64,000 nucleotides of DNA, from positions 37,089,125-37,153,124 of the forward strand of contig OZ024935.1 in NCBI GenBank assembly GCA_964017235.1. The letters run 5' to 3'. The DNA comes from Sabellastarte sp. h YS-2021 (Eukaryota; Annelida; Polychaeta; Sabellida; Sabellidae). The notes beneath the pieces were generated by a model. The model searched no databases, had not been told where the DNA came from, and worked only from the letters and a program-made list of their open reading frames with translations. This document shows, piece by piece, positions 2,749 through 64,000 of this stretch. The position numbers and the translations under genes were made by a program. How positions within the stretch are numbered: position 1 is the stretch's first letter; each line of letters begins with the position of its first letter.

Positions 2749-5700
2749 GTGATAGAACTGTATGTAGCTATGTGATTATGTTCTACAAATGGTTGTGTGA
2801 CATGACTGTGTGACAAATACGTTTTATGTCACAATCAAGCTATAGGCAGTATTTCTGGCAGTTATAGATAAGTTGAATGCTACTGCCTGTCAAACCCAGC
2901 TCCAAATCCCGAGCAATGGTTTTGCTACAAATGGTGATTGGTATCTGTAAGGACTACTGGTTTTACCTAAAAAGATCAGAAAAGATATTGTACAATAATA
3001 TTAAGACAAACATTTAATTTCACTGGATATACAAAAAGAGACAATAAAACATAGAAAGTGTAGAAAATGCAAGCAGAACAGCAACAAAAATAACGCAACA
3101 CTCTGTATAGTTACAGGTAACCATATGTATATTGTGATTCCAAGGAGAACATTTTTAATATTTATAAAATTAATGCAAATGCATATACAGTTTCTTGACA
3201 GAAAGTTGGCACTAAAATGTATAAAAATGTAGGCAATAACGTCTGTAGTGTGATTGAGGCATTAACAAGATTAAATTAGTATTTTGTAAACCCAGGGAAC
3301 AAAAGCTAAATGGTAACTAACCCCTCCTACCTCCTCTGGTCTGAAACCAGTCTCAAATTTTTTACTTAAGCCGATTTATCAATCCAACCCTTGATGGTGA
3401 GGAAAGGCTTAGTAGCATTTACGTGTGAAGCTCTACTTGTCATTGTATTTTGTCAAAGCTTTTAAACTAATGCAAGAAATGTTTACAGTCAATAAGGAGA
3501 GGGACATGAGTTGTATTCTAAATGAGAATCTAGAAACTTTGACAAATTCTATGGCATTCTGCATAGCTATTTTGATTAATGAATATTTAGTTAAATGTAG
3601 ACTTATAATCATAATATTGTATTGTCCCATGGTTGTTAGAAAAACTTTTGTTTGTTGAAACACCAAAAAAAAAAAAAAAAATTATATGTTATTTCATGAC
3701 TTTTAATTATTTTTTTTAAGAACTAGTTCTATCTTTTACACTGAAAGCTGTGTGTACATAATGTACTAGAATTATGAAACTTTCAAGTTAAAATATAGAA
3801 CTTTGTTATAGTAATAGGAAAACATATTCATATTATTAATCATCTTTATTGCATTCAGACTTCCCTGCTATTGTATGTTATAGTTTTGTTATATAATTTA
3901 TTATGATACAAAAGAGGCAATAAAATATTGAGGAAATTCATAGAGGGACATCTATCATCACCCCATAATCTCAAATGGACATAATGTGACAACAGTGTAA
4001 CACATCCAACCTCCCAGATCCAAATCAAATGTTGGAAATACGAGAGTTTGCTTACTGGTGCCCAATGGTCTTTTCTTTGTAAGTGTTCACCCACTATTAT
4101 CCAATGATTTTCTGCATTCTCTCAACTACTCTCTGTGATAACTTTTTTTTTCCTAGACCATCTCTCATTATCACTTTTGACAATTGTTTTGTCAGCCTTT
4201 GCACTGAGGGTCCTGTTGTGGGAAGATATTCCACCATCTAAGCATTAGATTGTGTTTAATAGGACCTGTATTGCCTGTATTATTTGTTCAAAACCAAATC
4301 AGTTAATCAATTCATCCCATTTTGTTGCACCTTCTTCATCTCAGTGTATTATCCCTTCATATTGTGTCATTTCAGAACAAAACATGGGAAGATTTGTTTT
4401 GAAGGAAGTAAGTTTTGTTGTTTTCACAAAAAATGCACATACAATTCAAGTCAGGATGGGTCATGTTGATACCCTCATACAGATAATATATAATCTTACA
4501 CAATCTTCATCTTTCTATTTACAGATTCTGAGGTAAAAATTAAGCATTTGGTAAAAGGCAAATTGACATTCTTGGTTATTTATTTTGTTTTACCGTGTTC
4601 ATACGACAAACATCTATGACCATTTATTGATAGAGGAATATTTTATCAGTATAACTGAATATTTTATCATGTTTCACCTTCATGAAAACATAATATCTGA
4701 AGTAATAGGGTTTTTGTTCCACATTGGTGATTGGATCATAAGCCTTGTCCTTATTTGGAAAAATTGGGATTGATCAAGATCCATTGAAGAAAAAGTAGAT
4801 TTTATGGTTAAAAATGATAGCTTTTTGAGAGGCATCACAATTGCTTTTCAAAATCTTCCAATTGGTCCTGAAAATGTTCTAATTAGTTCCGATATCCTCA
4901 GATGGCTTTCCAAAACATTCCTAATATGTAATTAGCCTTATGAAGGTCTATACAATTACTATTACCAACTTAACCAAAAGATTGCTTTATGAACATTAAG
5001 ATAACTACAGGATTGAGTTCCAGAAAACTAGAACTGATAATGGGCATAGAAGATCATAGAAGCTTGCGAAAAATTGAACAGTTTGAATTCATCAGCGATT
5101 CAATCCTGAACACTTCCAAAGTCTAACTGCTAGACCCAACCCCTTTCCAAATACAAAGATTGTTGTTTATGAACCTCCCGAATGAAAATATATATGGTTC
5201 TCCTAAATGCTCCTAAATCATAAATTTTCAGGATTGTAACCGGATCAGGGATGTGCCAATGTGTAACAACCATATTAGAATAGCCAATGAAGTTAAGAAA
5301 ATATCCAATGAAGGAATTAACAGAGGAGGTGTGGTTTTAGGTAATGTCTTGGATCAATGACTACATCTTGTGATTTGAAAATTTAGGAGAGTTTATTTCT
5401 GTCAATTTAGGCATGTTTTGAGATCATCTCGACTACTGCAACTCTCTTTTCAGAAGTCTGTCCCAGTTTCAACATGCGCAATTTGCAGTGTATTCAAAAC
5501 ACACTTGGTAGGATTGTTACGAATTGCAATAGATACTCATGGGCTACTCCTATTCTCAAAAAACTTCAATGGTTGCCAGTTGAATTTCAGTGCATTTTCA
5601 AAACTGCCACTTTGGTCTAAATGTTTCTTCACAGTGGTCACCCAAGCTGTTTCAGCCCTCATCTGTCTATTCGTTGTGGAAGATATAGCACAAAATACAA

Positions 5701-8700
5701 CCGCCCAAATAAAAGGTTCCTGGAGGTTATTTAATGCTACCCATTTAATCTGCCTGATGTCCGTTCTGCTCCAAATCTTGCCTGCCTTAGGAAAAAGGTA
5801 AAATCATATCTCTTTGATAAGGCTTTCCCACCTTAACATGTAAACTTCCTGGCATCAGCGTGGTGTTCAACTGGCTATGTATATGGAATGATGATTATTG
5901 ATTATGTACCTGGTGTTGCGCCTTAGAGTCTGCCTTTGCAGAGATTAAGCACTATAAAAGTTCAGAATAGAATAGAATAAAATAAAATGAGAAGATGGGA
6001 GAGTGAACTCAATTCACTGTAGACATGTTTTAAGGTGGTTTCTACGACTAATGACAGTATTTAGTATCATGTGAAATGTGATGTGAAGATGTGATATGAT
6101 GATGTGATGATTGATAATCATACAAATGTGTTGTTCTAGAAAAGAAAGATTGTAATAATAATGAAGAAATCAAGAATGAAAAGGTAGCAGAACAATCAAC
6201 AGCACCAGATGGGGGTACTGAACCAACTGCTATAGTATCTGTGGGAAACGATCTTCTGTCTACAAACAAATCACCAGGTTACCATAGTTAAATAATTAAT
6301 TAAAAACTATTTTAAATGATATAAGTTTAAAATTATTGTGTATTATATCCTTCAAAATATTCAATATTTGATATTTTTAAATAGAAAAGCTAAGTATTAC
6401 CTATTGTACACCACTGATTACAGCCAGGCAGTAGTCAAGAAACAAAAGACTGTTTATAATACTGTTTATAAACCAATGTGTCAAATGATACTTGTGATTG
6501 TGAAGTATACCATTATAACCTTCTCGACATAAATCTATTAACCATGTGGAAGTTTTAATAATGTTCGTCTTGATGGCAAGACTTCACCCAATGTTGACTC
6601 TACTCCAAGCCCTCAACATTTCTCTGTATCAACACTTATTCCAATATCATGATCAAAGATGTTAGAAACAAGTTGGCATTCTGTCAAATCTGACAACCAC
6701 TGAGGAACTGAGACCCTCTGTAAATTTGACTGACATAACTGATTTTTTTTTGGATATCATATACTTATTTATTTACTTTTCAAATATGATTTGACTGACA
6801 ATCTATGTTATCATCAACAGAGAACTTGGCAAGTGAAGGCAACAGACATGCCAATAGTGACAAAGATATTACATTGGATGACAAAGCATGTGTGATATCA
6901 TGGGCAGAACCAAATGTTAAAGAAGGTATTTGGTTTTAAAGATACTCATAGAGGGCAGACCTCTACCAGGGTGTATTTCCAAAAATTTGTAATTTTTACC
7001 TCACAGCTTGTAAAGGCTATGCGGGTATTGTTTCACTCATGGTGACTGGTGAGTGGGCCTGGGGGAAGGGATTGGGGGGAGGGGGGGTGTATGGATGGGC
7101 AGCTGGAACATTAATCTTGTCTAGGCTGTAACTCTGCAACATCATGGTGTAACCTTGATTTGATCTTTGACCTTGCCATAGTGAAATTGAATGGATGTTG
7201 ATACTTGGCAGGGACATTAGTTAGGAGGTGCAATGTGATGGTATGACTTTGATTTGTCCTTTGACCTTGCCCTAGTTACCATGACCTTTATCATCTTGTT
7301 TAGGCTATATCTCTGAAATTGTATGGTGTAGAAAGTTGATACTTTGTAGGGACATTGATTGGGGCATGTATGTGTGCAACTGTATGGTGTTACCTTGCCT
7401 TGGTGTAGCGTTTCACTTTTGCCTTGCCAAAATATTTTCTACTGCTATATTTGAGAAAATTCCTTCACAAAGATATATGGATTGCTGCAACTGATTATTA
7501 TATGTATTTATACCTAATTGTACAATCTCCTTTGACAGCTGTATTTCAATTAAAAAATTGTACAGCTTCATAGCTTTTTTTAGTTTGCTAATTAATGCTG
7601 TGATCTTGCTATTGAAATGACTTGTTTTGATACTTTGTCTTTACATACATATTTGCTCTCTTACCTCTTATTGTCTCCTGCACCTTTTTTCCAAATTTAC
7701 GTTGTCTCTTCTGGAAGTCTCCTGATCATTATACTATTTCTCCTTTTCCATATGTCATTGTGTTAAATGCTATTTCCCAGACCTTTTTTATCCAGAGTAT
7801 TTGACTGGATAATTCTCAAAATTTAACTACTTCTTCCTTTGGTCAGGCCCTAACCACATAAAAAGTCCAGAAATATCTGTTTATTTATGTTGGAGTTATT
7901 GTGAACACACAGACAACCAAATACACCCAAGAACCAAATCTTATGGATTTTGAAGATTTCCTGATGTAAAAACTGTGCTATATATTGTACCACTCAGAAT
8001 CATTAGTTTTCTACTGTAACAGTTGTTTTTCAGCAAAATTTTATTTATTTGAGAAAGAAAAATATTTTTGTTTTTATTTTATTTTTCAAATTTGTGGTTG
8101 AATCTACGAGCATTACTTTTATTACACAATGTTAAATATTTTGAATCCATTGGAATCCCTGATAGAATATACAAATATATGTGCTATTAATTGTTTTTGT
8201 GTGTTTCTTAAACAGATATTGAAGACAAAAAATCAGAAGTTGGAAATGGAAGTTCACTGACAAACACAAATATAAATAGTCGAGCGGGGACTTCGAAACA
8301 AAATGTTAAGACTCCAACAAGAGGTATAAAAACTACTTTTTCATACACCTGACATTTGTAATTGTAACATTCTGATTTTAGGTGTCCACTAAAAACATGT
8401 ATTTTACTTCTCATTAATAATTACATTATTGTACCTCAGAACGGTTATTTTTAGTTCCATGACAAAAAAATCCTATTAAATGTCACTCTTGGCATATATT
8501 TATAGGTGTATTGAATGTTTACATTGTTTACATGAATTATCTGGCACTTGACATGTTCATGGTGATTAGTTTAGCATTACATTTGACAGAGGAATGAGTG
8601 TCACTTTACACTCTATGATTTTTCTACTTTTGATTTCAAATTACTCATCTACAACAAATGTAATTGTTTTGTGTGATTGGAGATGCTGGTTTATCACCCA

Positions 8701-19568: not shown

Positions 19569-19953
19569 CCATCCCAAAAGCTGTATGTGGTAATAAGACC
19601 CATCCCATAAACTGCATGTGGTAATATGACCCATCCCATAAGCTGTATGTGATAATATAACCCATCCCATAAGCTGTGTGTGGTAATATAACCCATCCCA
19701 TAAACTGCATGTGGTAATATGACCCATCCCATAAGCTGTATGTGGTAATATAACCCATCCCATAAACTGCATGTGGTAATATGACCCATCCCATAAGCTG
19801 TAAACTGTATGTGGTAATAGGACCCATCCCATAAACTGTCTGTGGTAATATGACCCATCCCATAAAGTGTATATGGTAATATGACCCATCCCATAAACTG
19901 TATATGGTAATATGACCCATCCTATAAACTGTATAAGGTAATATGACCCATAC
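19569..19953. repeat. 31-bp minisatellite, about 12 copies
   Basis: The unit is 'ccatcccataaactgcatgt' plus 'ggtaatatgac' (31 bp). Copies start at 19611, 19642 and so on, with C/T and A/G variants and one extra 8 bp near 19797. Since 31 is not a multiple of three and the unit lacks minus-strand stops, all three minus frames stay open. The 171-, 121- and 111-codon frames there are artefacts. Confidence 0.9.
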
Positions 19954-35242: not shown

Positions 35243-35571
35243 AGCTGTACTACTGTTAGCAGTGGATGTGGCATCACTATTAGAGCTGTATTACTGTCAG
35301 CAGTGGATGTGGCATCACCATTAGAGCTGTACTACTGTCAGCAGTGGATGTGGCATCACTATTAGAGCTGTATTACTGTCAGCAGTGGATGTGGCATCAC
35401 TATTAGAGATGTACTACTGTCAGCAGTGGATGTGGCATCACTAATAGAGCTGTACTACTGTCAGCAGTGGATGTGGCATCACTAATAGAGATGTACTACT
35501 GTCAGCAGTGGATGTGGCATCACTAATAGAGCTGTACTACTGTCAGCAGTGGATGTGGCATCACTAATAGA
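35243..35571. repeat. 41-bp minisatellite, 8 copies
   Basis: The unit begins 'agctgtactactgtcagcag' and ends 'catcactattag' or 'catcactaatag'. Starts fall at 35243, 35284, 35325, 35366, 35407, 35448, 35489 and 35530, exactly 41 bp apart. The last copies share 'ctaatag', earlier ones 'ctattag', showing stepwise expansion. Confidence 0.95.
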
Positions 35572-36768
35572 GTAAAACTATAACTGTCTAGAGTATGATA
35601 TATATATAACAAAAAGGGAATTAAAATAATGTAAATATTTAGTTCATTTTCAACATCCAACATTTGATGTTATCCACATGTTTATCCAGTTTAACTTTGT
35701 TGCATAATCTGAGACTTCTATGGCTACCAAGAATTGAAAGCCACCACTAACCAATGACCAAAGTCTTTATAGGTCAGCTAGTAAACAAAAAGATTTCTAT
35801 ACACAAAGTTATATCTCATGCGCTAATTCGTGCATGTCAGAAGATTTTTTGTTATCACAAGGTAATTATAATGTAGGTCTGACACAATCCAGTCCTAACA
35901 AGATGTTCTTGTGCACATGAAAGGATCAAGAAATTTTTGTGATCACAAGATTATCATGTGCATACTACTAAGTAGTACGAATGGCTCAATTAATTAGTGA
36001 GAGTGAGTAGATCTTCTGCACATGACTTATCACATGGTATGTATTTTGCAATTCCCTAATACTGGCTCCATACATTCCATATGTTTTACAGGTTATATCA
36101 TGGTAGAGAGCTTGAGTCTTTATTTCGGTTTTAAACTAGATTTTTGTGAGGTTCTATGAAAAAACCTTCAAAATGCAACTTATCATGTACATCTATGTGA
36201 CTCCAAATATTCAGATTATGCCCTCCTCATGTCACGTTCCCAACAGCCAATGAAAACAGCAGTCTTTTACCTCAGTTCTGGGCAAGAAAGAGTACACCCA
36301 TGAGATATATTTACCAAATTTATAATTTTAAACATTATATTTCAAAACGTAATTTTTATCAGGAAATACCTTGTATTTAATTTTTTGAGAGATTTAAATG
36401 TGATACATTCTGCTTTATTTTATTTCAGCACTCTTCGTTAAACCCGAGATTTTCAAATTACACAGACATTTCTGTCTTGCAGGGTTAGCAGACTGTAGCA
36501 AATAATGTGTCTATAGGGGGTGGGGAAAGAAATACACAGCAGTAATGACTTTAGCTTTTGATCTCTAAACTCCCTTTGCAAACTGGAAACAATATATTAT
36601 TTCACTTGATGTCTGGGTGAAAATCAATGATGAAGGGCTTTCTTGTGTAATTTGCTGTTCTCTACATTGTGGATTTGACATAACTAGATATTTAACAAAA
36701 ACACCTATTTATGTTAGCACAATGACAGTGTAAATTCAAATGTTAAATTTATATGTGTCTATATTATA

Positions 36769-41680: not shown

Positions 41681-41685
41681 TATCT

Positions 41686-42107
41686 CGTTACCACAAGATA
41701 GTAAGTCATTCCCACAAGATAGGAAGTCGTTCCCACAAGTTAGTAAGTCGTTACCACAAGATACTAAGTTGTTCCCACAAGTTAGCAAGTCATTACCACA
41801 AGATAAAAAGTCGTTCCCACAAGTTAGGAAGTTGTTACCACAAGTTAGCAAAGTTGTTCTCACAAGATACTAACTCATTCTCACAAGTTAGCAAAGTCAT
41901 TACCACAAGATAGAAAGTCATTCCCACAAGATAGGAAGTCGTTCCCACAAGTTAGTAAGTCGTTACCACAAGATACTAAGTCGTTGCCACAAGTTAGCAA
42001 GTCGTTCCCGCAAGTTAGTAAGTCATTTCCAGAAGATACTAAGTCGTTCCCACAAGTTAGCAAAGTCGTTACCACAAGATACTAACTCGTTCTCAAAAAA
42101 TGCAAGG
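41686..42107. repeat. 21-bp minisatellite with 10-unit higher-order repeat
   Basis: About 20 units of the type 'cgttcccacaagttagtaag' plus t (21 bp; three or so are 22 bp). Units 1-10 (from 41686) and 11-20 (from 41898) correspond in order at an offset of exactly 212 bp: units 2-4 are identical to 12-14, and the 22-bp units 8 and 18 share 'gcaaagt'. The array arose by duplicating a 10-unit block. Frames on both strands are open because 21 is divisible by three. Confidence 0.9.
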
Positions 42108-55699: not shown

Positions 55700-58095
55700 A
55701 ATAGAATGAAACCCCTGTCCATAAAATGATAATTGTTGTTTTATCATTTCTATAGAATTCATTGATCTGAAGTCTCCGTTATTCCATTATTATGAACCCT
55801 CTTTCTATGCAATTTTTATAATAAAGACATTTGCCTTTTTATTTGAATTTTCGTTTCCCAAGCAAGGACTGTGTAACAACTTTTGCATCCTTTAACTTGT
55901 TAATTGGTCTTCTTGTTATACATGAATTGTAAGATGTAATGATTTACTGATAAAATGGTGGTGCTTTTGTAAAAACCTCAAAATTTTTTACTTTTTGGAA
56001 TTGATTTTCATTAACAGATTTTTATCTATACCAATTGGTTCCACATACATGTCCATTGTCTATTGCACTATTTTCATTTAATAGTTTGGGAAGCCAAGAA
56101 GATTTTAGAGCTTGATGTTTAGACTCAATATCAATCATATTGAGACCTCCATTGCTATAGCAGTACACTTTTTTATTTTGTGAGTTTTACCCCATAAATT
56201 TTTAAGAGTATTGCATCTATTTTATGAAGTATATTATCGCATGTATAATATTGTCAAATTATATATCAGTTTTGGGACAATAAGGTTGTTGATCACAACT
56301 ATTTTACCATAATATGTTAATTTTCTATTACTCCAATTTAATAGAAGAGTTTCAATTTCACTAAGTTTCATTTCCCAGTTGTATTTTTTAAATATACTTT
56401 GATCTGTACCAATATAGATTTCCAAACATTTCACTGGACCCTTGGATAATCTAATTCCTTCATCAATATTAGAGTTGTGTTTTAAAGTACCAATTCAAAT
56501 GCCTTTGCACTTATCTACATTGAGTTCAAGCCCTGAAACATCCATAAATGTTTTACTATTCTCAAAGCATGGGTGATTGGTTATTTTCTAGGGTCAGAGT
56601 CGTGTCATCTGCATATTGTGTCAGTGTCGACCTTTTTTCAAAGAGCTTGATTGCTTTTATGTCTTCTGCATCTCTGATCTCAATAGCCAGGAATTCCCAG
56701 GCAAGTATAAATAACAGTGCTGATACAGCACATCCTTGTCTAATACCTCTACCCATTTGTGATTCCTTTGAGACCCATCCATTGTTCTTTACACTAAATG
56801 TTGGTTTATTATATAGAATTTTTATCCATCAAATGAACCGGTTACCATTGTGATCACAAGAAATGAGGTTTGGGATGGCTCTCTGAAGATGCTGAGCAAG
56901 GACAAAAGTTAAGATTTTATAATTGCAATTAGTTAAACTAATTGGTCTGTAATTTTTTAATAAAGCTTTATCACTTTTCTTGAAAATTATTATAATTATT
57001 GACTTTTGTGTACTATAAGGCAGAACACCCTTATGGAAAATTTCGTCACTCATTCTCATATAAATATGTTCAATTTATTTCCAGAACACTTCAGGAGTAA
57101 GACTCTCACTACCAGGTGACTTATTCTTTTTCAGATTATTGACAACTTTAATGTACTTCATCATTTGTTAATGGGCTTTCACATACTTTCACATATTTTT
57201 CATATAAAAAGTTTACTTTTGTGAAGTTATTCAGATATTCATTTACCCTTTCCATGGAGATATTTGTTTTTTATGTAAGTTGCTATAAAAATTCAGAGTT
57301 GCTTTTGGCATTTCCTGATCATTTTAAATCACTTGACCTTCAGAGTACATTTTTGTTATTACATTAGCAGCTTGTCACTGCTTTTAAAGATTTAAAAATA
57401 TCTTGAAGGAATGTTGCCTTCTTCAATCCATTTAATTCTTGCCTTTATACATGCGCCTTTTGCTTTTAGGCTGCAGGAGTTTCTTTGTTTACTTTCAAGT
57501 TCTGACTTGAGCAGTTTACTATATTCTAACCGCTCTTTCTCATTATGAGTTAAACTGCCTTTGATTTCCAAAGTCAATACATTTTTGTTGATACTGTCTA
57601 ATTGATGTTGAATATATTTGAGCATATCTTTTCTTTGTCTGGATTTTTCCTTACAATGTGATATAGAAAATTCTTTAATGTTTGTTTTAACAAGTTCACA
57701 GATTAGTTGATAATATTTAAGATCTTGATGTTCTTGCGAAGTTTTGGCAATGACCTCTTTGGTTTTAATCAAGATATTGCTTATCATTGAAGGCAGAATT
57801 ATTTAGTTTCCAGTAACCTAGACCCGTTTCGGTAGGTAAATTATGAAAGATATTTTTCAAGCTGAATGACCAATGACTCCTAGATTTTTAATTGGCTGTG
57901 TGATGGTGTTATTTTCTATTTCATAATTCATAGCTTGTGATACAAGGATATAGTCTATTCTACTGTAACTGTTGCACTTTTTATCATAATAGGTATAGCC
58001 AAGTATATTTGGATTAGTTAGCAGCCAACTATCATTTAATTTGCATTGAATTAATAGTTTTTCAAATGAAGCTGAAGCTGTTACAAACATTTAGA
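55700..58095 (-). mobile_element. decayed LINE ORF2 (endonuclease tail, RT, C-terminal region)
   Basis: Reading right to left on the minus strand: SRIDYILVS near 57940 (end of an APE-type endonuclease); a Lys/Glu-rich linker at 57392-57787 ending KARIKWIEEGNIPSRYF; then KNYRPISLTNCNYKIL in 56829-57059 and RQGCAVSALLF with QYADDTTL in 56562-56756 (RT blocks). A thumb-like segment with RKLTYYGKIVVINNLIVPKL lies at 56234-56434. The arrangement and wording fit L1/Tx1-like LINEs and resemble the remnant at 24290-26040. Stops and frameshifts occur throughout. Most of the endonuclease is absent. Confidence 0.85.
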
Positions 58096-58173
58096 ACATG
58101 TCTAGTATATGACATTAATGTTAGCTTACTCATCATTGTTCTTTTCATTGGTGCTTTCATTACAAGGTTTTCA

Positions 58174-59378
58174 GCAGCTTGCCATCTTGTTCTTTCCAGG
58201 CCATGCACTCTTTTTGAAAGTCAGACATTGCTCCTTGGTTGGACCAATGGACCAGAATAAGTCACCAGAAACTGCTTCTGCAATCACCCCTTCTGAGTTA
58301 ATGAGAGCCTCACAGAATTCTGGGCAGCAGTTTGCTTGGTATGAAGAACCTGTTCCATTGCTTTTTCTTTCTGATCTATCCAGTTTGGGTTGAAGGGGAG
58401 ATAACTGGTTTCTATCTTGGCTTGATAAGCACTTTTAGCTTCAAGAATTCACTCAGCCACTTTATCCTTTCCAGTCTGTATAGCTTTTGAGTATTGATAT
58501 GCATGCTCTGATGACCTATGCAATACCCCAAAGACCTTAACTTCACATGGATAGAAATTGCTGGGGTGGTCGGACTTTCCTACAAAAGTAATTACATACT
58601 TGAGTTGCTGTTTTGCAGAACCTGGATAAACTTTTTCCACTGGACTATGACTCTTCCCCTTGCAAATTATACAACAGGGTTCACTTGTACATCGCCTTTT
58701 GAAATGGACATAGTTCGTACAGTGCTTGTGGGTCATACTGGGTTGGTCCCTATAAAAATGCTGATACTTGTATCACCTATCCAGGTTTTCCTGGGCAAGG
58801 ACTCCTCAAATTTATCAACAAACACAATTTGGTCACCATTCATCCATTCTGTCAGTTCATTGCTTTCATTTCTGGCTTTAGCAAATTCCACCTTACCTAT
58901 GAGTTTTATTCCATGGTTAATCAACTATTGTTCTATGCATTTATTTCATTTTAAGAGGGGCATATCTTTAATTGTGACTTTCATAACACTGGTCTGTTTC
59001 CCCAGTGGCCAATCTGGCTCTCAGTGGATTGTTAGTGAACACATTGACACATTGATCTCTAATTTCCACTTTGTTGGAAAGGACAGTAACTCTAGTCTCT
59101 TTAATTTTGAGGTATATTTGCCACAACATGCCAATTCTCTGAACACACATCAAACTGTCTTTCTTAATCTGTTTGCACACCGCTTCACAAAGTTCATATT
59201 CTTTTAAAGTTTTAAAGGCTGGTATTTCTCCAGCTTTAACAAACACAGGGTCTACTTTGGGCAGTTTCATGATTCTGTTGTGTTGAAGAAAGACCACTTT
59301 GCTAATCGGTATTAATTGAAGCCTTTGTTGTGGAAGCTGTGTACAATGTGTACACAATGCACTAATTAACTTTTTCAA
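58174..59378 (-). pseudogene. LINE ORF1 remnant with CCHC-like knuckle and NADAR domain
   Basis: On the minus strand, 59378-58968 encodes the N-terminal ORF1 part (KTLKEYELCEAVCKQIKKD and IRDQCVNVFTNNPLRARL). A frameshift near 58985 leads into 58924-58733 (EFAKARNESNELTEWMNGDQ, ending PRKTWIGDTSISIF). A Cys/His cluster follows (C-TNYVHFKRR-C, CCIIC, H, about 58721-58640). From 58598 to about 58174 the protein reads as a NADAR/YbiA-like domain: SNFYP, SSEHAYQYSKA, then past a stop (58449) NPNW, and in another frame EALINSEGVIAEAV, FWSIG and WPGKNKM. NADAR domains are linked to ADP-ribose/NAD-related chemistry; a role in this element is unknown. ORF2 lies just downstream on the same strand, so the two are parts of one dead element. 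Confidence 0.75.
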
Positions 59379-59587: not shown

Positions 59588-62500
59588 TTAAATAATTTAT
59601 GTTCAGACATGTAAGGCTCCAAATGCACCTAAAATGCACTCCCAATACATGTATTTTGAGCTTGGTATGTATTTCTTAATGAATGCACTACTTAATTCTC
59701 TCTTAGTGGGGCCAACTTTCGCCCAAAATATAGTTTGCACCCATACATCTGCCTTATTGGTCAAAATATGAGCAAACCTTAAGGCAACCCCCAGAAGCCG
59801 AAGGACAGGCATGCTGGGGCCCATATACCACACCAGTAATCACTGCTAAAACCTATGGCTGAAACCTATGCAGTCAGATTTAGTACCTTACAGACTATTT
59901 TCTGGCCAAATTTCAGGATTATAGACCAACATTTACTACTCACTTGGGGTGATTTACATGTATTTTACACCATTTTAACAGCAATATTCGGATTAAATAA
60001 TTTCTGTTCAGACATGTAATGCTCCAATTTTGCCTAAAATGTCCTCATTTCTGATCAAAACATGTCTGAAATTAAATAAGTGCTGCAGATTGACCACAAT
60101 ATGATATACCTGAAATTACCCCTCATGAGGGGGGGCAGACCAGGCCCACACCCCGAAACTGAAATTCCAAATATGGCCCTCGAGTTTGTCAGACAAATGC
60201 AATTTAATTCTATGATGAAAACTGAGTTTCCTGTGAAAATTTGAGCCAGATCCAACCCATTTAAGGGGTGTTTTGAGCTGAATTTAAAGTTTGTGGTACC
60301 CTCGCTACATGCACTCCCAGTACATGTATTTTGAGCTGGGTATGTATTTCTTAATGAATACACTACTTATTTCTCTTTTAGTGGTGCCCACTCTCGCCAA
60401 AAATATGGTTTACAGCCTTACTTCTGCCTTATTGGTCAAAATATGAGCAAACCTTAAGGCACCCCCCAGAAGGCGAATTACAGGCCTGCTGGGGCCCATA
60501 TACCACACCAGTAATCACTGCTATACTGGATGTAATTCTAAAACCTATGCAGTCATCTGCCACTGTGGCCTAGCGGGTAACACACTTGTCTAGGAACTCA
60601 GAAGACGTGGGTTCAATCCCAGGTACAGGCAGATACATAGTGGCTCGGATGACCACTTAAAATGGCGGTCCTCTGTCATTGGGTCCTATCCCCAGTGGCA
60701 GGTTAAAGAACCTCAAGGACGTTGATAAATGGTCATCCTTGAGCCTCTATCTTCCAGTTAGGGGAATGTCAGTTACTTGTGAGTTGGGGCTGTACCTGTA
60801 CAGTCGGATTGGTTAAATAGCGCTTTGAGTCCTGTAGTATATGGAGATATTGCGCTGAGTATAAATACATAATAATAATAATAATAATAATAATTAGTAG
60901 GTTGCAGACTATTTTCTGGCCAAATATCAGGATTATAGACCAACATTTACTACTCATTTGGGCTGATTTACATGTATTTTACACCATTTTAACAGCAATA
61001 TTCGGATTAAATAATTTCTGTTCAGACATGTAATGCTCCAATTTTGCCTAAAATGTCCTCATTTCTGATCAAAACATGTCTAAAATTAAATAAGTGCTGC
61101 AGATTGACCACAATATGATATACCTGAAATTACCCCTCATGAGAGGGGGCAGACCAGGCCCACACCCCGAAACTGAAATTCCAAATATGGCCCTCGAGTT
61201 TGTCAGACAAATGCAATTTAATTCTATGATGAAAACTGAGTTTCCTGTGAAAATTTGAGCCAGATCCAACCCATTTAAGGGGTGTTTTGAGCTGAATTTA
61301 AAGTTTGTGGTACCCTCGCTACATGCACTCCCAGTACATGTATTTTGAGCTGGGTATGTATTTCTTAATGAATACACTACTTATTTCTCTTTTAGTGGTG
61401 CCCACTCTCGCCAAAAATATGGTTTACAGCCTTACTTCTGCCTTATTGGTCAAAATATGAGCAAACCTTAAGGCACCCCCCAGAAGGCGAATTACAGGCC
61501 TGCTGGGGCCCATATACCACACCAGTAATCACTGCTATACTGGATGTAATTCTAAAACCTATGCAGTCAGATTTAGTAGGTTGCAGACTATTTTCTGGCC
61601 AAATTTCAGGATTATAGACCAACATTTACTACTCATTTGGGCTGATTTACATGTATTTTACACCATTTTAACAGCAATATTCGGATTAAATAATTTCTGT
61701 TCAGACATGTAATGCTCCAATTTTGCCTAAAATGTCCTCATTTCTGATCAAAACATGTCTGAAATTAAATAAGTGCTGCAGATTGACCACAATATGATAT
61801 ACCTGAAATTACCCCTCATGAGGGGGGGCAGACCAGGCCCACACCCCGAAACTGAAATTCCAAATATGGCCCTCGAGTTTGTCAGCCAAATGCAATTTAA
61901 TTCTATGATGAAAACTGAGTTTCCTGTGAAAATTTGAGCCAGATCCAACCCATTTAAGGGGTGTTTTGAGCTGAATTTAAAGTTTGTGGTACCCTCGCTA
62001 CATGCACTCCCAGTACATGTATTTTGAGCTGGGTATGTATTTCTTAATGAATACACTACTTATTTCTCTTTTAGTGGTGCCCACTCTCGCCAGAAATATG
62101 GTTTACAGCCTTACTTCTGCCTTATTGGTCAAAATATGAGCAAACCTTAAGGCACCCCCCAGAAGGCGAATTACAGGCCTGCTGGGGCCCATATACCACA
62201 CCAGTAATCACTGCTATACTGGATGTAATTCTAAAACCTATGCAGTCAGATTTAGTAGGTTGCAGACTATTTTCTGGCCAAATTTCAGGATTATAGACCA
62301 ACATTTACTACTCATTTGGGCTGATTTACATGTATTTTACACCATTTTAACAGCAATATTCGGATTAAATAATTTCTGTTCAGACATGTAATGCTCCAAT
62401 TTTGCCTAAAATGTCCTCATTTCTGATCAAAACATGTCTGAAATTAAATAAGTGCTGCAGATTGACCACAATATGATATACCTGAAATTACCCCTCATGA

Positions 62501-64000
62501 GAGGGGGCAGACCAGGCCCACACCCCGAAACTGAAATTCCAAATATGGCCCTCGAGTTTGTCAGACAAATGCAATTTAATTCTATGATGAAAACTGAGTT
62601 TCCTGTGAAAATTTGAGCCAGATCCAACCCATTTAAGGGGTGTTTTGAGCTGAATTTAAAGTTTGTGGTACCCTCGCTACATGCACTCCCAGTACATGTA
62701 TTTTGAGCTGGGTATGTATTTCTTAATGAATACACTACTTATTTCTCTTTTAGTGGTGCCCACTCTCGCCAAAAATATGGTTTACAGCCTTACTTCTGCC
62801 TTATTGGTCAAAATATGAGCAAACCTTAAGGCACCCCCCAGAAGGCGAATTACAGGCCTGCTGGGGCCCATATACCACACCAGTAATCACTGCTATACTG
62901 GATGTAATTCTAAAACCTATGCAGTCAGATTTAGTAGGTTGCAGACTATTTTCTGGCCAAATTTCAGGATTATAGACCAACATTTACTACTCATTTGGGC
63001 TGATTTACATGTATTTTACACCATTTTAACAGCAATATTCGGATTAAATAATTTCTGTTCAGACATGTAATGCTCCAATTTTGCCTAAAATGTCCTCATT
63101 TCTGATCAAAACATGTCTGAAATTAAATAAGTGCTGCAGATTGACCACAATATGATATACCTGAAATTACCCCTCATGAGAGGGGGCAGACCAGGCCCAC
63201 ACCCCGAAACTGAAATTCCAAATATGGCCCTCGAGTTTGTCAGACAAATGCAATTTAATTCTATGATGAAAACTGAGTTTCCTGTGAAAATTTGAGCCAG
63301 ATCCAACCCATTTAAGGGGTGTTTTGAGCTGAATTTAAAGTTTGTGGTACCCTCGCTACATGCACTCCCAGTACATGTATTTTGAGCTGGGTATGTATTT
63401 CTTAATGAATACACTACTTATTTCTCTTTTAGTGGTGCCCACTCTCGCCAAAAATATGGTTTACAGCCTTACTTCTGCCTTATTGGTCAAAATATGAGCA
63501 AACCTTAAGGCACCCCCCAGAAGGCGAATTACAGGCCTGCTGGGGCCCATATACCACACCAGTAATCACTGCTATACTGGATGTAATTCTAAAACCTATG
63601 CAGTCAGATTTAGTAGGTTGCAGACTATTTTCTGGCCAAATTTCAGGATTATAGACCAACATTTACTACTCATTTGGGCTGATTTACATGTATTTTACAC
63701 CATTTTAACAGCAATATTCGGATTAAATAATTTCTGTTCAGACATGTAATGCTCCAATTTTGCCTAAAATGTCCTCATTTCTGATCAAAACATGTCTGAA
63801 ATTAAATAAGTGCTGCAGATTGACCACAATATGATATACCTGAAATTACCCCTCATGAGAGGGGGCAGACCAGGCCCACACCCCGAAACTGAAATTCCAA
63901 ATATGGCCCTCGAGTTTGTCAGACAAATGCAATTTAATTCTATGATGAAAACTGAGTTTCCTGTGAAAATTTGAGCCAGATCCAACCCATTTAAGGGGTG
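59588..64000. repeat. satellite array, exact 679-bp period
   Basis: The marker ttcagacatgtaatgctcc recurs at 60007, 61021, 61700, 62379, 63058 and 63737. Spacings are 679 bp except the first, which is 1014 bp because a SINE is inserted. A left-edge copy (marker at 59602) lacks 274 bp, with ATG on both sides of the deletion point. Copies from 61021 on differ at only a few positions (for example 'gagggggggcag' against 'gagagggggcag'). The array continues past the window. The repeated 102- and 60-codon minus frames are simply copied along with the monomer. Confidence 0.97.
60556..60893 (+). mobile_element. tRNA-derived SINE, family B (copy 3), inside the satellite
   Basis: The best-preserved copy: 'ccactgtggcctagcgggta' (A box), GGGTTCAATCCCAGG (B box), central domain with 'gatgaccacttaaaatggcg' and 'ggttaaagaacctcaaggac', 3' end 'atggagatattgcgctgagt', and a (TAA)n tail. 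It interrupts a satellite monomer between 'gcagtca' and 'ttagtaggttg'. Intact monomers have 'gattt' at this place, and no target duplication is visible. Confidence 0.9.

Follow-up and report, generated by a model that had tools for sequence, protein, structure and literature searches.

A NADAR domain in a protein of a long interspersed nuclear element (LINE) is already in print in outline, in a 2025 report that describes NADAR in Gypsy elements of Ectocarpus, adds in one sentence that several Tx1 LINE ORF1s (first open reading frames) of the Pacific oyster (Crassostrea gigas, Repbase) also appear to contain NADAR, and suggests a role for the domain in processing RNA intermediates (PMC12477816). 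The element considered here is a LINE on the minus strand of a 64,000-nucleotide stretch (the window) of the genome of the annelid Sabellastarte sp. h YS-2021 (contig OZ024935.1, positions 37,089,125 to 37,153,124). The ORF1 protein of this LINE, of which the window has a dead copy, ends in NADAR, and in this genome NADAR is a true component of LINE ORF1s that is kept by selection, in many copies and in several families. The name Tx1, used in PMC12477816, is applied to this LINE group only provisionally.

The oyster LINEs are likewise elements with a YbiA-family NADAR in ORF1 and are probably of the same kind as the element in the window; the accessible part of that report gives no counts or selection analysis for them, whereas both are given here for another genome (PMC12477816). 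The Ectocarpus elements are also retroelements with NADAR, but they are long terminal repeat elements that carry the domain in Pol, and its relatives were almost only bacterial, for which possible horizontal transfer was suggested (PMC12477816). NADARs of animal RNA viruses, including picornaviruses of annelids and bivalves, similarly belong to RNA-based parasites and are proposed to undo host ADP-ribosylation, but they lie in a polyprotein with the viral polymerase and not in an ORF1 protein (PMC9503650). The esterase (type IV) and plant homeodomain (PHD; type III) ORF1s of CR1/L2 elements provide another likeness, that of an ORF1 which has an extra domain and is believed to have moved from one ORF2 lineage to another, although the domain and its biochemical role differ (PMC4120745). 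The sequence-only reading of the window had left open whether the fusion was already described. The present analysis adds the L1-type ORF1 with NADAR and the two ORF2s that it accompanies, the joint occurrence of ORF1 and NADAR in many copies, and the evidence on selection and the active site; none of these additions appeared among the listed open-licence papers and passages on NADAR, DUF1768 or YbiA with transposons or LINEs, among which PMC12477816 was the only report of the fusion.

The sequence-only reading had recognized NADAR motifs by eye, and SNFYP, SSEHAYQYSKA, FWSIG and WPGKNKM do follow one another on the minus strand as they would in a NADAR, interrupted by a single in-frame TGA and a single frameshift; a further stop lies directly after WPGKNKM, in the last helix of the domain. 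The broken domain stays below the Pfam cut-off of 35.1 bits: the piece at 58772-58449 gave no NADAR match, and the piece at 58434-58171 reached 15.3 bits (E 0.025). The intact 385-residue ORF1 of a relative, L032, aligns along its whole length (residues 1-385) to window positions 59270-58129, split into four pieces across three frames (combined E 1.9e-157), and because the alignment is full length and the NADAR of L032 exceeds the cut-off, the match in the window is not due to chance. Reading by eye outdid the profile here because the broken halves alone barely register. The placement of the domain inside a LINE ORF1, with endonuclease and reverse transcriptase (RT) downstream on the same strand, was borne out by this alignment and by two RVT_1 pieces, and the ORF1 starts at 59270, beyond the 58174..58740 that had been marked. 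The decayed LINE spans the minus strand from 59,270 to about 56,200 and comprises the following.

59270-58129, minus strand: ORF1 as a whole, decayed, its last third being NADAR (tblastn with L032 ORF1).

58989..59270, minus strand: N-terminal part of ORF1 (residues 1-94 of L032 ORF1; tblastn, 86% identity).

58739..58990, minus strand: middle part of ORF1 (residues 95-178) in another frame, with two stops (tblastn, 73% identity).

58602..58727, minus strand: CCHC zinc-knuckle region of ORF1, partly eroded (alignment to L032 residues 183-227).

58129..58601, minus strand: NADAR domain, interrupted by a single in-frame stop, a single frameshift and the further stop near its end (Pfam, alignments and reading of frames).

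57850..58066, minus strand: remnant of the APE-type endonuclease of ORF2, limits approximate (DNA comparison with related copies and frame reading).

57392..57802, minus strand: stretch of ORF2 between endonuclease and RT (136-residue open frame, with similar DNA in related copies; a Pfam scan gave nothing over the cut-off).

56829..57074, minus strand: RT, first piece (RVT_1, E 0.00092, below the Pfam cut-off).

56562..56828, minus strand: RT, second piece (RVT_1, E 1.3e-06, 28.8 bits against a cut-off of 29.6).

56234..56494, minus strand: part of ORF2 presumably following the RT core (86-residue open frame placed by position only; a Pfam scan gave no match).

The copies closest to the one in the window are L030 (88% DNA identity) and L031 (85%), and the intact L032, L033 and L035 are about 75-76% identical to it. 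Relative to its nearest relatives, the window copy lacks about 0.45 kb at the start of the endonuclease (subject gaps of about 444-462 bases at query 1342/1355).

In L032, L033 and L035, and likewise in a second family (L041, L042), ORF1 is a single open frame with some 180 residues at the N terminus, then a pair of CCHC knuckles (183-227) and NADAR (228-385), and its end is overlapped by an ORF2 encoding endonuclease and RT. The first 520 residues of the L032 ORF2 match Exo_endo_phos (E 7.1e-22). In the more remote families L137, L138 and L136, ORF1 is built up in the same order, L136 with one knuckle and with a tail of more than 100 residues after NADAR. Where the broken window copy fell short of the profile, all five of these window-type ORF1s scanned matched Pfam NADAR (PF08719) strongly, at 72-90 bits (L032, E 1.1e-20 and 75 bits; L041, 7.3e-20; L137, 1.2e-24; L138, 1.3e-22; L136, 1.8e-25). 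Direct reading shows two knuckles in L032, L041, L137 and L138, with six residues, not four, before the last cysteine of the second; Pfam zinc-finger matches in these ORF1s were weak or absent. Type I ORF1s of LINEs are defined by at least one RNA recognition motif (RRM) directly upstream of CCHC zinc knuckles (PMC4120745). The N-terminal 180 residues of the window type were modelled with a predicted local distance difference test (pLDDT) score under 50, which gives no fold name, and an RRM was not seen at this confidence.

A second architecture came from 20 loci of the NADAR match list (its best 150 matches), chosen mostly for long frames. At 18 of them, an ORF1 frame of 408-500 residues ends in NADAR, here called the L1 type, and all 16 of these ORF1s that were scanned matched Pfam NADAR over the curated cut-off; the other two loci, L025 and L026, carry a stand-alone NADAR. 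An AlphaFold model of the L011 ORF1 has a coiled coil at residues 53-149 followed by an RRM, a C-terminal domain (CTD) and NADAR. Its middle part matches human LINE-1 ORF1p (2yko/2ykp), which shares the RRM, the CTD and the coiled-coil end with the L1-type ORF1, and its end has the NADAR fold, matching the Phytophthora nicotianae NADAR crystallised with ADP-ribose (8bau). We know of no NADAR in human ORF1p itself. The P. nicotianae protein and Escherichia coli YbiA (2b3w) share the fold and the active-site glutamates and lysine with the LINE NADARs, but they are not fused to a LINE ORF1 and are 25-35% identical to these in structural alignments. The other L1-type ORF1s align to L011, the only one modelled, and the combination of coiled coil, RRM and CTD is that of type II as defined for LINE ORF1s (PMC4120745). 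Five of the 18 L1-type ORF1s were used as queries against the window, and none matched it at E 1e-3.

An ORF2 frame, broken or cut at the locus end in some cases, lies 0.7-4.3 kb downstream of ORF1 at 17 of the 18 L1-type loci; at L019 no ORF2 frame was seen downstream. L015 and L016, near-identical copies on different chromosomes, have the same spacing between ORF1 and ORF2 (about 2.6 kb), as L013 and L014 nearly do, a sign that the two frames are parts of one unit. A 148-base tandem repeat in L016 (6777-7126), about 0.7 kb upstream of the L1-type ORF1, is perhaps part of the 5' region. At G000:C11:26054232-26054690 and G000:C11:82865905-82866882, the L1-type ORF1 region lies within open frames of 1370 and 867 residues, possible in-frame fusions.

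How regularly NADAR accompanies these ORF1s was scored on the best 150 or fewer matches of each search; the larger first-look counts of candidates (2705 for the genome NADAR search, 2525 for the L1-type search, 1999 for the window-type NADAR and 3024 for the L011 RRM-CTD-NADAR query) are unverified. All 150 scored matches of the genome NADAR search were above the Pfam cut-off, and 3 of 14 control genomes also gave matches. For the window type, the genome was searched with the N-terminal part of ORF1 and with NADAR, and the positions of the best 150 matches of each were crossed. For 111 of the 150 listed N-terminal matches, a NADAR match followed on the same strand no more than 1.3 kb away, and 32 listed matches without a linked NADAR sit in short frames. 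Among N-terminal matches in open frames of at least 380 residues, 49 of 56 were linked to NADAR, and 47 of these 49 share exactly one frame with it; the exceptions are seven frames of 477-496 residues, of which the one read (L136) does contain NADAR and six are unread. The same crossing for the L1 type placed NADAR within 0.6 kb for 95 of 150 listed matches and linked 65 of 88 long frames (at least 400 residues) to it, 58 in exactly one frame. When the continuous RRM-CTD-NADAR part of L011 was the query, which favours copies with both parts, all 121 matches listed extended past the junction, several with internal stops. By this means, 20 of the remaining 23 long L1-type frames were found to continue into NADAR (two only in part), for a total of 85 of 88; the other three (C3:174433214, C2:32581437 and C11:26054232) were not among the matches listed for that query. 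The sequence-only reading had asked whether intact ORF1s with knuckle and NADAR occur in many copies, and it had named two outcomes that would refute the fusion. Neither arose: the profile match is strong in intact relatives, and among the long frames other than the six unread window-type and these three L1-type ones, no intact relative without NADAR appeared. Because intact copies occur elsewhere in the genome, NADAR is probably part of the survival of the element.

In the comparison of substitution rates that the sequence-only reading had proposed, NADAR is under purifying selection, with a ratio of nonsynonymous to synonymous divergence (dN/dS, Nei-Gojobori counts) of roughly 0.06-0.10, near saturation. 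Of 153 L1-type pairs (18 ORF1s), the 14 most similar were considered. The ratio for NADAR was 0.06 in L019/L020 (dS 2.9), 0.08 in L016/L018 (dS 2.4) and 0.10 in L011/L024 (dS 3.2); L015/L018 repeats the result of L016/L018 because L015 and L016 are near copies, and the rest of the 14 pairs are near copies or saturated at synonymous sites. The RRM-CTD part gave 0.04 in L019/L020, 0.12 in L016/L018 and no value in L011/L024, and the N-terminal coil gave 0.31, 0.20 and 0.21 for the same three pairs. NADAR is also the best conserved part of the L1-type ORF1, with a median identity over the 153 pairs of 0.455 versus 0.336 and 0.198. Between the two window-type families, dN was 0.17 with synonymous sites saturated (85 of 98 differ). 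For whole ORF1s, the three pairs among L032, L033 and L035 gave ratios of 0.36-0.51, and L041/L042 gave 1.79 on eight changes, very close pairs having too few changes to judge.

Active-site residues were placed by alignment to 8bau (chain index equals residue number plus two). Among 25 NADARs examined, the equivalent of E43 is kept in 25, that of K50 in 24 and that of E125 in 25; these three correspond to E332, K339 and E412 of the L1-type set, all of them in invariant columns. All three are still legible in the window copy, E43 and K50 in the frame at 58772-58449 and E125 in the frame at 58434-58171. By eye, L011 also keeps K75, R79, W89, D130 and W133, and the window-type NADARs keep K75, W89 and W133, and D130 except in L138. 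A glutamate at the E125 place marks the YbiA subfamily, whereas the BC4488 subfamily has aspartate and phage NADARs have histidine there (PMC11543638); the NADARs examined here carry the YbiA mark in all 25 cases. In the E. coli C7 NADAR, K95 and D171, the counterparts of K50 and E125, are required for activity, and glutamine at the counterpart of E43 abolished it (PMC11543638).

Two separate captures of NADAR by these LINEs are likely rather than a single origin, although the trees do not settle the matter. The window-type NADARs form one group that is separated from the L1-type NADARs by supported branches (97/93 and 100/97). A clade uniting the two types was not rejected in the first tree (61 rows; p 0.17) and was weakly rejected (p 0.020) in the second, in which three window-type rows were added and one long-branch viral row was dropped. 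The L1-type NADARs alone as a clade were not rejected (p 0.277). A clade of L1-type and stand-alone NADARs was rejected (p 0.006), and the stand-alone NADARs (L025, L026) fall within the prokaryote ones. The trees took in 27 of 63 prokaryote loci (one an archaeal metagenome-assembled genome). Of 22 viral loci, 13 went into the first tree and 12 into the second; those that fall next to the window type are weakly placed because they were found with a window-type query and lie on long branches.

The L1-type ORF1s precede two distinct ORF2 lineages, as judged from ORF2 identity. One comprises six loci (L010, L011, L013, L014, L020 and L024) with ORF2s 36-69% identical to that of L011, and the other, which is L1-like, comprises eleven (L009, L012, L015-L018, L021-L023, L027 and L028), to which the L011 ORF2 is only about 24-28% identical. 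Human L1 ORF2p is the best solved match of the L1-like ORF2 of L027 (E 2.1e-89); the lineage of L011 matches the same structures more weakly and mainly in the RT (best E 2.5e-20). The window-type ORF2 of L032, over its first 520 residues, is 29% identical to that of L027. The Tx1/L1 group of LINEs is characterised by an APE-type endonuclease together with an RT nearest to that of L1. In the Jockey group, LINE lineages are known to have swapped ORF1s (PMC4120745).

NADARs take ADP-ribose off guanine in DNA (PMC11543638), and ADP-ribosylated guanosine in RNA was reversed only by NADARs among the hydrolases tested (PMC11833690). We give about an even chance to the proposal that the NADAR of ORF1p strips ADP-ribose from guanine bases in the RNA or cDNA of the element and so counters a host or microbial ADP-ribosyltransferase. 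In a living element, the RNA-binding part of ORF1p would coat the element RNA, the attached NADAR would hydrolyse guanine-ADP-ribose on the RNA or first-strand cDNA, and the template would stay legible to the element's RT despite guanine ADP-ribosyltransferases of host or microbes. Protection of template or cDNA is the simplest reading because NADAR sits on a protein whose other domains bind the element RNA. Catalytic activity, nucleic acid as the substrate and a role in counter-defence are all predicted for the LINE NADARs, and the step from enzyme to counter-defence, argued from domain function, is the least certain. Several observations weigh against this proposal. L138 has glutamine at the K50 place and glutamate at the D130 place, L011 has leucine and serine at the places of the ADP-ribose contacts D86 and R93, and the window-type NADARs lack R79, another such contact in 8bau. 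Alanine at the E43 counterpart of the C7 NADAR had only a minor effect in vitro, and bacterial and plant NADARs also act on intermediates of the riboflavin pathway (PMC11543638). Exon-by-exon searches of the genome gave no match for DarT (PF14487; 1 of 14 controls positive) and none for Scabin-like proteins (PF22596), the latter search being uninformative because no control was positive.

ORF1p is a component of a ribonucleoprotein that has to reach DNA, and NADAR could instead be a reader of ADP-ribose that docks this particle on ADP-ribosylated chromatin, such as PARP-marked nicks or replication forks, and so aids target-primed integration. The match to a structure with bound ADP-ribose and the partly kept pocket would fit a reader, but residues whose C7 counterparts are needed for hydrolysis (PMC11543638) are retained at K50 (24/25) and E125 (25/25), the argument resting mainly on E125 because K50 also binds the ligand; we consider this explanation improbable. 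Destruction of small signals derived from ADP-ribose or NAD, of the cyclic ADP-ribose type, or of reactive riboflavin intermediates would blunt an NAD-dependent alarm, and viral NADARs, those of phages most firmly, have been proposed to act on soluble ADP-ribose derivatives (PMC9503650). In the same paper, macromolecules are the targets given for NADARs of eukaryotic RNA viruses, and fusion to an RNA-binding protein would place the enzyme on RNA, fitting a nucleic-acid substrate, so that this explanation seems to us unlikely, if worth keeping in view. That ORF1p retains NADAR for structure or for oligomer contacts only, its activity lost, would agree with the missing ligand contacts; conservation that extends to the active site, with E332, K339 and E412 invariant in the L1 type, makes this rather improbable as well. 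That a piece of a host gene landed by chance in a single LINE copy and does nothing for the element might be suspected from the window copy alone, which is broken and below the Pfam cut-off, but it is for practical purposes ruled out by in-frame copies in many families, purifying selection and the kept active-site residues.

If the removal of ADP-ribose from nucleic acid is indeed what these domains do, an eraser acquired at least twice (once behind a zinc-knuckle ORF1, once behind an L1-type one), passed between distinct ORF2 lineages and then retained would imply that retrotransposition in this animal is constantly threatened by ADP-ribosylation of guanines in RNA or cDNA. Such a threat would amount to a so far unrecognised defence against retrotransposons, or to a side effect of microbes that acts like one, met by a transposon countermeasure; we offer this wider interpretation tentatively, as less likely than not. 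NADAR roles across eukaryotes, animals included, remain unclear (PMC11125620), and if many animal NADARs are retrotransposon proteins, a role becomes testable, namely protection of the RNA template from base ADP-ribosylation, and the modification that they undo would point to host or microbial attack on retroelements. Animal NADAR gene counts may partly be LINE counts. For six edible clams, ADP-ribosylation of guanine in DNA is reported as an activity (PMC11209040), which offers a concrete place to start looking.

A third NADAR-bearing repeat (L025, L026 and L001-L008) has a stand-alone NADAR frame of 167-179 residues, followed downstream by tandem repeats of about 165 bases and then by frames of 490 and 165 residues without a Pfam match over the cut-off; in L025 it occupies 4733-5233 and 5578-7173. 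The 38 best-scoring matches of the genome NADAR search lie in frames of stand-alone length, and all eight distinct loci fetched carry the stand-alone frame. In the window, an array of near-identical units lies upstream of the LINE at 60055-63749, the last four units 679 bases apart, with repeated frames of 103 and 83 residues. Other tandem repeats of the window are at 19569-19951 (period 31 bases), 35243-35572 (41 bases) and 41685-42095 (21 or 212 bases). Elsewhere in the assembly, COX1 on contig C647 (G000:C647:13793-15133) has one in-frame TGA, as in many mitochondria.
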